Made by a program: the position numbers and the translations under genes | Shown here: positions 26,977 through 54,082 of the stretch, piece after piece | Layout of the letters: each line of letters opens with the position of its first letter | Position numbering within the stretch: position 1 is the stretch's first letter | Notes under the pieces: model-generated | The model's input: the letters and a program-made list of their open reading frames with translations, nothing else | What the model was told of the DNA's origin: nothing | Databases searched by the model: none | Source: Methanothrix thermoacetophila PT | GTDB taxonomy: Archaea; Halobacteriota; Methanosarcinia; Methanotrichales; Methanotrichaceae | Length of the DNA: 64,000 nucleotides | Assembly (NCBI RefSeq): GCF_000014945.1 | Contig: NC_008553.1 | Location: 434,001-498,000, forward strand | Reading direction: 5' to 3'

Positions 26977-27165
26977 GGACGTGTCCAAATGTGGATCAGG
27001 TGTTGAGGTTGTCTCAAAATTCCCAGGCATATTGATTTATGTAGATTGTATTTTCCGCGCAGGATCGATGCAGATCTGCATCGTGCTTAAATAGTTTCGA
27101 GACAAATTCGTTTCCAACCTGCAGAATGTGGTCCAGATTTCTGGCCTCTGCTCTTATCCGGACAG
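26977..27165 (+). repeat. Family P repeat, copy 5, split by a family R insertion
   Basis: The left part (26977-27004, GGACGTGTCC...CAGGTGTT) and right part (27111-27165, TTTCCAACCTGCAG...CTTATCCGGACAG) join to a sequence like copy 2 (15820-15906). The 106 bases between (27005-27110) are absent from copy 2 and form the family R element. Confidence 0.7.
27005..27110 (+). mobile_element. Family R MITE-like insertion inside a family P repeat
   Basis: The 106-base insert begins GAGGTTGTCTCAAAATTCC and ends GTTTCGAGACAAATTCG. The reverse complement of the right end gives TTTGTCTCGAAAC, so the ends are inverted repeats of about 11 bp. Its left 35 bases and its centre recur at 52388-52597. There is no coding capacity. 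Confidence 0.65.
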
Positions 27166-50493: not shown

Positions 50494-52089
50494 TTATTTG
50501 ATGCCCTTAAAGCATCGATCAAGATGCGCGGTGTCCGGTGGTCTCGTGAGTATGCTCACAACGATCGTGACTAAAAACGCCAGCGGCAGCGCAACCACTA
50601 TTGGATCCACTACAGGCCAGGGCATCTGGGTTATGAGCACATCCCTGCCGAATATGAATCTGGATATGCCGAGGGCCTCTGCCTCTTTTTTATGGACGAA
50701 GACCATCCAGAGCACGCTCGAGAACGTGCCGGTCACGAGCCCCGCGATCGCGCCCGCTCTTGTGGCCCGCCTCCAGAAGAGAGCGCATGTGTACATCGGG
50801 AGGAACGCGGCTGCACAGAGCCCGAAGAATATGGATGTGCCCCTGGCGATGATGTTCTCCGGAAGTATGTATCCGAGGACGACCGCGATGACCACAGCCA
50901 CTATGATCCCTGCCCTCGTCACCAGTATTGACCCTGTTCCCTTTTTCCCTGTCAGCGTCTCATAGATATCCCTGCCGATCGCGGTGCCCTGGGCATGGAA
51001 CTGAGAGCTCGATGTGGACATTGCTGCTGCGAGGAGTGTGAGCATGAAGAGGTACACAAACCACTCCGGCATCGCCGCATTGATGTAAACAGGTATTATG
51101 CTGTCCGCGTTCCCCTTAGCCACCTCTATCGCTATCTTGCCCTGTGTGGCATGGAAGAAGACGTTTGACAGAGCCCCGACATCGAACGCAACGCCGGTCA
51201 TTGCGAGTATGAACACGCCGCCGATCAGGACACCGCGGTTCAGCTCCCTGCCGGATCTCACCGTCATGAATCTCACCGCGAGCTGCGGCATCGCGAGGAC
51301 GCCAATCCCGACACCGAGGACCACGGTCGAGACCAGTGTCCACCACCATGCGCTTCCGAGCGCTGGCATGCTCGTCCATCCTCTGTGACCCTGTGCCGCA
51401 AGGCTCTGAGGAACCAGGTTCGCCATGTCTGTGAGCGCCTGGTGGGCAGCTGTCACACCTCCAAGGTGGAGATAGGTCATGATGAGAAGAAATATCATCC
51501 CCAGAAACATTACCGTGCCCTGCATCGCATCTGTGTACATGACCCCCTTCAGGCCGCCCCAGACCACGTAGGCAGCGATTATGAGCGAGTAGATAAGCAG
51601 CGCGAGGTTGAAGTCTATTGAGAGCGTGGTCTCCATGAACCTGGCAGCACCAATTAAAACGACGGATGCATATAAAGGCATCCCGAGAAAGATCACAAGC
51701 CCGCTGAACCACTGGATGAACTGGCTGTCGAACCTCCGGCCCATCAGCTCCGGGAGCGTCATAGCTCCCAGGTTGTAACCCATCCTCCTCGTGCGCTTTC
51801 CGTAAATTATGAACGCTATGAATATCCCCACAAAGATGTTGAGGAATGTCAGCCACAGAAGCCCCATGCCGAAGAGACCTGCCATGCCGCCGAACCCCAC
51901 GATCGCGGAGGTGCTGATGAATGTTGCCCCGTAGCTCATCGCCATTATGTAAGGATGGATCTTTCTGCCCGCCACCATGTATCCTTCGGTGTCCCTCGTC
52001 GTCACCCAGCCCCTGTATCCCAGGTAGAGCGTGACAAGCAGATAGACGACCACCAATACGTTGAGAAGTAACAGATTCATGGATATCAC
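50494..52089 (-). CDS. Sodium:solute symporter family transporter
   Basis: This protein of about 531 residues has some 13 helices and SSS-family features: GYMVAGRKIHPYIMAMSYGATFIS near the start, YVVWGGLKGVMYTDAMQG, and AAAMSTSSSQFHAQGTAIGRDIY. Substrates of the family range from acetate to proline; in an aceticlastic methanogen acetate is attractive but not shown. GTG 52089 overlaps the accessory-gene stop; ATG 52080 is an alternative start. Confidence 0.93.
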   Translation of the reverse strand: MISMNLLLLNVLVVVYLLVTLYLGYRGWVTTRDTEGYMVAGRKIHPYIMAMSYGATFISTSAIVGFGGMAGLFGMGLLWLTFLNIFVGIFIAFIIYGKRTRRMGYNLGAMTLPELMGRRFDSQFIQWFSGLVIFLGMPLYASVVLIGAARFMETTLSIDFNLALLIYSLIIAAYVVWGGLKGVMYTDAMQGTVMFLGMIFLLIMTYLHLGGVTAAHQALTDMANLVPQSLAAQGHRGWTSMPALGSAWWWTLVSTVVLGVGIGVLAMPQLAVRFMTVRSGRELNRGVLIGGVFILAMTGVAFDVGALSNVFFHATQGKIAIEVAKGNADSIIPVYINAAMPEWFVYLFMLTLLAAAMSTSSSQFHAQGTAIGRDIYETLTGKKGTGSILVTRAGIIVAVVIAVVLGYILPENIIARGTSIFFGLCAAAFLPMYTCALFWRRATRAGAIAGLVTGTFSSVLWMVFVHKKEAEALGISRFIFGRDVLITQMPWPVVDPIVVALPLAFLVTIVVSILTRPPDTAHLDRCFKGIK

Positions 52090-52274
52090 ATGCCCAGCTC
52101 TTTCTCCTGCATCTCAAGCTCCTGGGCCTCCCAGGCAGCCTCCTCCACGATCTCCTGTTTCTCAATCTCCTCGCCTTTATTCCAGTTGGCGATGCCGTAT
52201 GAGACGCACAGAACTGTGCTCAAAATGCATAAAAGATATACTCCCCATATCCAAGGATCATCTATTCCAAGCAC
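52086..52274 (-). CDS. Small symporter accessory protein, one membrane helix
   Basis: This 62-residue protein has one helix (WIWGVYLLCILSTVLCVSYGIANW) and a long acidic tail (KGEEIEKQEIVEEAAWEAQE). It matches the small accessory subunits encoded before archaeal SSS transporters. GTG 52274 follows GGTG. Its stop overlaps the symporter start. Confidence 0.88.
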   Translation of the reverse strand: MLGIDDPWIWGVYLLCILSTVLCVSYGIANWNKGEEIEKQEIVEEAAWEAQELEMQEKELGM

Positions 52275-52387
52275 ATCGGCACCCTCTTGCAGCTCTCCCA
52301 GAGCGTGTAAAGTGGCAGCATGTTACATATTATCATGATATAAGGGTGTCGGTCAGGAATATATGTTAAAGATTTTTGGTTCGGAGC

Positions 52388-52597
52388 GCATCTCAAAATT
52401 CCCAGGCGTATTGATTTATGCAGATGCTCTTACGTGCGCAGCAACTTGTACAGGATGTGATGTGGTTGGTGAAAGCACTAATCTATTCGAGACAAATGCA
52501 TACCATGACCAGTGCCACTTTGGGTAAGTTATCATATGGATAAGAGCGTATATGGATTCTATTTTCGCACAGGATCAACACAGATCAGCATCATTCT
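52388..52597 (+). mobile_element. Family R element interrupted by a family Q element
   Basis: The left part (52390-52425, ATCTCAAAATTCCCAGGCGTATTG and on) and right part (52553-52597, TGGATTCTATTTTCGCACAGG) match 27015-27090. Between them, 52426-52548 is a reversed family Q copy. The right end of R is lost. The nesting order shows that Q was mobile after R landed here. Confidence 0.65.
52426..52548 (-). repeat. Family Q MITE-like repeat, copy 4, inserted in family R
   Basis: Read on the minus strand it begins CGCTCTTATCCATATGATAAC and ends GCGCACGTAAGAGC, 123 bp, nearly the same as copy 5 at 63229. It has no coding capacity. Confidence 0.75.
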
Positions 52598-52604
52598 CCA
52601 AGAA

Positions 52605-52655
52605 CACATAGCACGAACAGTGTCTTTCCGGGAAGGTTGTCATATGGGTAAGATC
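52605..52655 (-). repeat. Partial family Q repeat, copy 6
   Basis: On the minus strand ATCTTACCCATATGACAACCT with CACTGTTCGTGCTATGTG resembles the left half of family Q. The right half is missing. Confidence 0.45.
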
Positions 52656-52656
52656 A

Positions 52657-52672
52657 AAAACATTTTTGTTAT
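52657..52672 (-). terminator. Possible terminator after rfcL
   Basis: AACAAAAATGTTTTTG is a short palindrome with a U-run on the minus strand, 7-22 nt after the rfcL stop. Confidence 0.3.
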
Positions 52673-52678
52673 GTAGCA

Positions 52679-54082
52679 CTAGAAGTCGAAGAGGGACCTC
52701 TGTCTCTTCTCTTGGACAATTTCCTTGCTCACTGAGGCATACTTCATGGCTTTATCTTCCGGCTTTTCTATCTCTCTATCCACAATTTTAAGGCCGCGAT
52801 CTATCATGGCGATCTGCTCCGCCTCGATTATCTTCTGCGCGTCCTCAAAGAGCTTCTGCACCTTCTTTGTGGTTGGAGAGCTACCGGTCAGGAGCGCGAT
52901 CTCCTCAATGTTCAGACCGAGGGATGCTGCAACAGCCGCTCCAGTCTTCTTACTCCTCAGCAGAGCTCCCACAAAGTTCAGGAGTTCAGATCTGGCGTAG
53001 GACGTGCTGACATGGCAGTGCGCTGCGATCTTTCTGGCAGCTGAATCCCTAACAGATCTGGCCTTCCTTGTCTGACCCAGCCGTTTCCAGAGGCTTGGCG
53101 GCCTGAACTGCGTATACCCCCTACGCACCTTCGAGCTGACCGCTCTAACCCCGCCGGTCATCAGGAATGCGGCATACCTCCAGAGTGTGTAATTCTGCCG
53201 CCTTCTCACCCTTCCCAGGAAGATGTCAGCTCTCGATAAACATTCAAATCCCTTCGCGAGCTCTCGATCCTTGTACACAATGGGCAGATTCTCATCGATC
53301 CAGTGTATGAGATCCTCTGGGCTCTCGTCCAGCTGGTACGTCGCCTCAAGCGCACTCCTCGAGTCCTCGCCCTTGAATATCGAGTCCAGGACCCTGAATA
53401 TCGACGCCTTCACATCCCTCTCAGAGGTCGCGACGTCTTCCAGCCGCAGGTGCTTAAGACCACGAGCCGCAGCCTCCAGGTCGTTTATCGCGCTGCGCAG
53501 ATCGCCGCCGGACATCGCTGCTATATGCATTACCGCCTCCGGCTCGCATTCTATCCCCTCGCTCCTGCAGATCTCCCTGAGAAGCGATGCTATTGTCTGC
53601 GCTCTTATCGATCTGAACTGGACACCCCTGCATGCATCCCTGAGCGGTTTTTCTATATTGTAGTACTCGTTTGCGATCAGAATCACAGGCTGAGTCGCGT
53701 TCTTTATCACCCTCAGGATCGCTGCTGCGCCTCCTCTGTCGTATGTACCGTGGAGGTTGTCAGCCTCATCAAGTATCACGAGCCTTCTCCTGCCAGAGAA
53801 CGTGCTCACCTGCGATGCCGGGCCGGCAATGCTCTTTATTATCTCCGCGGTCCGCTGATCGCTGGCGTTGAGCTCTATGTAGTCCCAGTCCATCTCAGAT
53901 GCCAGCGCGAGGGCTGCAGATGTCTTCCCAACCCCTGGGGGGCCGTACAGGATAAGGCACTTCACCTCTGGCCTGCCCTTCTCCCAGGCCATGGCCCATG
54001 CCCTGAGCTCCGAGACCGCCTTGGCATTGCCCAGGATGCCGTCAAGGTTCTTCGGCCTGTACTTCTCAGCCCAGCTCGTCAT
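52679..54082 (-). CDS. rfcL: Replication factor C large subunit, RfcL
   Basis: This 467-residue AAA+ clamp-loader subunit has WAEKYRPKNLDGILGN, Walker A LYGPPGVGKTSAALAL, Walker B LVILDEADNLHG and SGGDLRSAINDLEAA. The C-terminus QRSLFDF is a PIP-box that binds PCNA. It loads the sliding clamp with RfcS (not in this window). Distance to the upstream flavoprotein gene is 4 nt, so both probably share a transcript. Confidence 0.95.
   Translation of the reverse strand: MTSWAEKYRPKNLDGILGNAKAVSELRAWAMAWEKGRPEVKCLILYGPPGVGKTSAALALASEMDWDYIELNASDQRTAEIIKSIAGPASQVSTFSGRRRLVILDEADNLHGTYDRGGAAAILRVIKNATQPVILIANEYYNIEKPLRDACRGVQFRSIRAQTIASLLREICRSEGIECEPEAVMHIAAMSGGDLRSAINDLEAAARGLKHLRLEDVATSERDVKASIFRVLDSIFKGEDSRSALEATYQLDESPEDLIHWIDENLPIVYKDRELAKGFECLSRADIFLGRVRRRQNYTLWRYAAFLMTGGVRAVSSKVRRGYTQFRPPSLWKRLGQTRKARSVRDSAARKIAAHCHVSTSYARSELLNFVGALLRSKKTGAAVAASLGLNIEEIALLTGSSPTTKKVQKLFEDAQKIIEAEQIAMIDRGLKIVDREIEKPEDKAMKYASVSKEIVQEKRQRSLFDF

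Follow-up and report, generated by a model that had tools for sequence, protein, structure and literature searches.

A complete Q element nested in a truncated R element in the genome of Methanothrix thermoacetophila PT

Features of the locus

The window under study is a stretch of 64,000 bases (bases 434001-498000 of the single-contig, 1,879,471-base genome of Methanothrix thermoacetophila PT), and coordinates refer to it unless marked as genome positions. Between a symporter gene and a gene for an ATPase resembling replication factor C (RFC) lies a composite of short repeats, in which a complete copy of one family, Q, separates two parts of a copy of another, R. The features, with an uninterrupted R copy for reference, are as follows.

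50494..52089, minus strand: sodium:solute symporter (Pfam SSF, E 1.4e-59)
52384..52424, plus strand: left part of R, consensus positions 1-41 (profile match to model 5-57 from 52388, its end overrunning into Q)
52417..52424: left 8-base target duplication, reading TATGCAGA
52425..52548, minus strand: guest Q, complete, 124 bases (profile match to model 1-123, E 8e-31)
52549..52556: right 8-base target duplication, reading TATATGGA
52549..52595, plus strand: right part of R, model 34-80 (profile match, E 1e-7)
52591..52653, minus strand: half of a second Q, model 4-66 (profile match, E 5e-10; 2.5e-12 in a short search)
52679..54082, minus strand: AAA ATPase resembling the RFC large subunit (Pfam AAA and RCF1-5-like lid above cut-off)
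27005..27109, plus strand: reference R copy, uninterrupted, itself within a copy of the P family with the duplication GTT

Profile searches were run with models built from the genome copies. After the overrun into Q had been trimmed, the left R match covered 52388-52424 (model 5-41), and the right match covered 52549-52595. The first four bases of the left part are an extrapolation, the terminal repeat there having decayed to GAGCGCATCTC. On the minus strand the guest Q reads CGCTCTTATCCAT ... GTAAGAGCA. The initial annotation had placed a reversed Q copy at 52426-52548; its strand and its end hold, and its start is corrected to 52425. It had also seen that the R copy is interrupted by Q, but it overlooked that this copy ends at position 80, where half of another Q is joined to it. 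The host R is without positions 81-105, its last 25, among which is the right terminal repeat, and the fusion runs across a shared 5-base overlap, TCATT. The half Q has the same orientation as the guest and lies 42 bases away from it.

The Q and R families

Q is a multicopy element of 124 bases without a transposase gene. It was found as 63 near-complete copies in 409,975 bases, which cover the matches of the genome search and most end-pattern sites rather than the whole genome. The left-end pattern of Q occurred at 73 sites, against 2 for a control pattern read backwards. The terminal inverted repeats, CGCTCTTATCC against CGCTC(A/T)TATGT, are imperfect and about 9 bases long. An 8-base target duplication was perfect in 26 of 62 near-complete copies and had at most one mismatch in 40, while mismatched flank pairs gave a perfect one in 0.05% of cases; perfect duplications of 6, 7, 9 and 10 bases were seen in 0, 0, 3 and 0 of the 62. 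In a manual comparison with eight copies, the guest Q came closest to one with which it shares 115 of 124 positions. Judged by these features, Q behaves as a MITE (miniature inverted-repeat element). It occurs in all six genus genomes, including the present one, with 1 to at least 49 matches each (E 0.01; one genome has a single match). In the larger genomes the scoring covered 40 candidates from a first screen. An exact 26-base Q pattern gave 0 matches in viral contigs.

R is 105 bases long, is likewise multicopy without a transposase gene, and was found at 25 loci at E up to 0.001. Its terminal inverted repeats are GAAGTCGTCTCAAAA against GAATTCGTCTCGAAA, and its 3-base target duplication was perfect in 12 of 19 copies (against 4.7% of mismatched pairs) and had at most one mismatch in 16 of 19. 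R, too, behaves as a MITE on the evidence of its copies. The host R at the nest agrees with the R consensus at 67 of 80 positions. Five other copies compared by hand gave 66-69 of 79-80 (three copies) and 78-79 of 80 (two copies), which puts the host among the more diverged R copies. Among the six genus genomes R in its own form was matched in the present genome alone, apart from two short R-like matches in one sister (E 0.001). In sister genome G001, L146 and L148 carry R-like elements roughly 100 bases long, whose ends are similar and whose core differs.

Since Q is present in all six genomes and R was matched essentially in the present one, Q moved in this genome at a time when R had already spread. 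Their duplication lengths, 8 bases for Q and 3 bases for R, suggest different enzymes, and the two families were presumably moved by different transposases.

Junctions and target duplication at the nest

When Q was removed together with 8 bases, the flanks joined into a continuous R (model positions 4-80) that scored 64.8 bits. The separate flanks scored 27.6 and 20.3 bits, so that the gain on joining was 37.2 bits. The number of bases removed beyond Q was varied from 0 to 20; 8 was best, and any other number gave at most 61.6 bits. The initial annotation had proposed Q nested in R and had called for a search for the junction and for duplicated target bases. The joined flanks and the 8-base overlap bear out this nest: model positions 34-41 are common to both R parts and constitute the target duplication. 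As it had also supposed, the two R parts are contiguous elsewhere, at 27005-27109 of the window (genome 461005-461109) and in 18 other near-complete copies. At the duplication the R consensus is TATGTGGA, from which both 8-mers at the nest have mutated, at 2 and 1 sites. They agree with each other at 5 of 8 positions, a likeness that is weak alone and depends on the R consensus.

A second, independent nest of Q in R was found at genome 82600-82723, with a perfect 8-base duplication, AAATAGTT, at R positions 85-92. Removal of 8 bases was again best, with 91.3 bits against at most 86.1 for other numbers. As a control, flanks were paired across sites. A match spanning the junction was obtained in 53 of 3020 mismatched pairs, and in 69 of about 4560 in a second control in which self-pairs were skipped. 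The control gains above 12 bits (29.8, 21.0 and 12.4) each paired two sites from the observed list, and the next best shown were 9.4 and 9.0 bits. Compared with these controls, the gain of 37.2 bits at the nest is not due to chance.

Two R copies in one genome holding a Q might also be read as a longer R variant, of which Q would be an inherent segment moving with the rest as one element and never inserted. R is interrupted, however, at different positions in the two (34-41 and 85-92) and with different duplications, none of the 19 near-complete R copies contains Q, and the 40 Q copies counted above have an 8-base duplication of their own; we consider this reading extremely improbable. The half Q fused to R nearby in the same orientation could instead point to recombination or deletion between neighbouring repeats, rather than transposition of Q, as the origin of the juxtaposition. 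Complete Q ends, a contiguous R and an overlap of exactly 8 bases, the duplication length of the family, would not be expected from such an event, which makes this origin very unlikely.

We hold it highly probable that Q and R are unrelated, MITE-like families of non-autonomous DNA transposons, that Q transposed into R positions 34-41, and that a separate deletion fused R to the second Q. An R copy would have landed between the RFC-like gene and the symporter gene, near another Q copy. The two would have been fused by a deletion that ran from R position 80 into the other Q, its ends meeting at the 5-base shared sequence. Independently, and either earlier or later than the deletion, a new Q would have entered R positions 34-41 in the opposite orientation; the enzyme was probably a DDE-type transposase supplied in trans. 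The insertion would have duplicated 8 bases, both copies of which would have mutated since.

Neighbouring genes

The RFC-like protein is 88-90% identical in three MAGs (L071-L073; two Methanothrix and one euryarchaeote). Six of the 16 loci with the RFC-like gene were examined, these three and the more distant L074-L076. A symporter gene was not found near the RFC-like gene in any of the six, and the sole symporter match at E 1e-3 among them covered 56 residues (L075). No empty site was found in these relatives, in which the RFC-like gene has other neighbours. The intergenic stretch that bears the nest (52275-52678) falls at a change of gene order. A small ORF at 52086-52274, just upstream of the symporter gene, had no Pfam match at E 0.01.

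The position of the composite between two genes raises the question whether it is kept as a promoter, terminator or RNA acting on them. The right end of R carries CGAAACTATTTAAG, which we take to resemble an archaeal promoter, and this would favour such a role. That end is missing at the nest, however, the left end of R and the duplication are decaying, the gene arrangement is absent in the six relatives, and Rfam gave no match at E up to 1 in 52200-52750. Retention for a function seems to us very unlikely, and we infer that the composite has none for the host.

Nesting elsewhere in the genome

The joined-flank test was applied to 152 of the 157 near-complete Q, R and P copies in the 409,975 bases described above, to which all counts of nesting refer; the other five are without full flanks. 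A match across the junction was found in 12 of the 152, and in eight of them the gain over the better single flank exceeded 12 bits: Q in R (two), P in R (two), Q in P (three) and R in P (one). The single R in P is the copy at 27005-27109 with its GTT duplication, whose gain of 12.6 bits is the weakest of the eight. Four weaker joined-flank matches were left uncounted: Q at genome 84952 gained 6.5 bits over the better single flank, and no gain was seen for Q at genome 363372 or for R at genome 136456 and 533463. The copy at genome 136456 reads by eye as R in P, and genome 979930-980170 may be Q in Q.

P was also found inside R, the reverse arrangement, at two genome positions, 406944-407035 and 640841-640934. 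Another R copy is interrupted at genome 981026-981140 by an element whose ends resemble those of P, flanked on both sides by GGATTGTA; its likeness to P was judged by eye, its P profile match being no better than E 0.11. Interrupted R loci number five of 25, holding Q (two), P (one), P with two tandem copies of a fourth family (one) and the P-like element (one).

The initial annotation had combined P hosting R and R hosting Q into a nested history of three families. Each statement is true as a pair, but the pairs sit at different loci and do not form one three-level nest. Because each of P and R is found inside the other, there is no strict order of the three families; they were mobile over overlapping times.

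The R copy with several guests (genome 640782-641196) hosts one P and two tandem copies of the fourth element, which is MITE-like, with ends GAGTATTC and a GCAT duplication. They are similar to the ends of an IS5-type IS found in other genomes of the order, which has GAGGATTCCTA at its ends and a duplication of about 4 bases. Four P copies stand in a row at genome 614710-615092, three in the same direction with a 96-base period, preceded by one reversed. At genome 1641513, 1648398 and 1655283, Q copies and neighbouring Q-like ends recur at an exact spacing of 6885 bases. An IS copy is found twice at the same spacing (genome 1646955 and 1653840), a pattern that suggests tandem multiplication of a unit of about 6.9 kb.

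By a crude count, 8045 of the 64,000 bases in the window (about 12.6%) are non-coding. With this share scaled up, the 25 R copies occupy some 1% of the non-coding genome, and chance alone would place about 0.7 of the 63 Q copies in R. Two were seen, which is no clear excess, and so the nesting needs no special mechanism. R positions 34-55 take four of six insertion events, as read by eye in an interval chosen after the positions had been seen. That MITEs are preferred safe landing sites for one another in this archaeon appears to us unlikely; if true, targeted mutual nesting would shape the small non-coding space of the genome. The nesting is real and looks like an ordinary outcome of many small transposons having little non-coding DNA to share.

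Comparison with known systems

Q and R share with the archaeal and bacterial MITEs treated in PMC10969869 a short length, many copies, the lack of a transposase, imperfect terminal inverted repeats and a target duplication of fixed length. No description of Q or R was found in titles, abstracts and passages of open-licence papers. A table for Haloquadratum walsbyi counts 192 cases of one element lying inside another (PMC3119063), and there, too, small non-autonomous archaeal elements have gone into other mobile elements. Most of the targets are PATEs and IS605-type transposons, and the table of that paper contains no MITE as a target. In the genome studied here, unlike in H. walsbyi as tabulated, short MITE-like elements serve as hosts for one another, and between P and R the nesting goes both ways. 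The same paper states that some MITEs move in H. walsbyi though a functional copy of the matching transposase was not found (PMC3119063). Nested mobile elements in an archaeon have thus already been published, and the present nest is a real, ordinary new example.

The mechanism is standard transposition. The nesting gives evidence that several small transposon families were mobile over overlapping periods in one methanogen, including Q, for which a search of its own genome with a single transposase family gave no parent. The locus is chiefly useful as a clean worked example, and it cautions against deriving a linear history from single nests.

Search for parent transposases

Sister genome G003 contains two copies of an IS5-type transposase fragment that have different flanks and end at the R left terminus, GAAGTCGTCTCAAAATTC. 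This terminus is identical over 18 bases to the IS end, which may link R to the IS5 family; the sister copies stop at contig ends, so that their second terminus and duplication lie outside the comparison. The transposase matched Pfam DDE_Tnp_1 above cut-off and NCBIfam transpos_IS5_3 at E 3e-13, the latter with a 92-residue fragment and below the model cut-off. No copy of the IS bearing the R terminus was found in the M. thermoacetophila genome. A search of 50 genomes of the order with one IS5-type fragment left this genome without a match at E 1e-10.

For Q, one transposase family profile was searched, and among the 20 DDE_Tnp_1 matches in the genome none was found with Q ends. A 1269-base stretch of G004, in which Q ends enclose a broken IS5-type transposase, was considered as a candidate parent and rejected: the transposase belongs to a separate element, bounded by GAGGATTCCTA...TAGGAATCCTC, and the stretch is an IS inserted in a Q copy. 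A Q copy in this sister genome (L191, G004:C12) accordingly hosts an IS5-family IS with a broken transposase. Ends like GAGGATTCCTA...TAGGAATCCTC occur in 8 copies in G016 and, with variation, in 2 in G021. A nine-copy IS of the M. thermoacetophila genome (IS5 family by NCBIfam; ends TGCTGTGTTGGATAA, 8-9-base duplications) was also set aside, since inspection by eye showed no convincing resemblance of its ends to those of Q or R. A short IS type of this genome (GGGTGTGTCTA) resembles the P ends, as judged by eye only. In the stretches at unpaired R ends and some Q ends (nine loci listed, two of them from G001), no ORF was recognised by eye as a transposase.

One IS occurs in opposite orientations at genome 1053235-1053732 (L169) and 1272987-1273484 (L171), with flanking duplications of the aaaaagtt and atttggaaa types that seem to have been exchanged between the two, which points to recombination between the copies and an inversion of about 220 kb.
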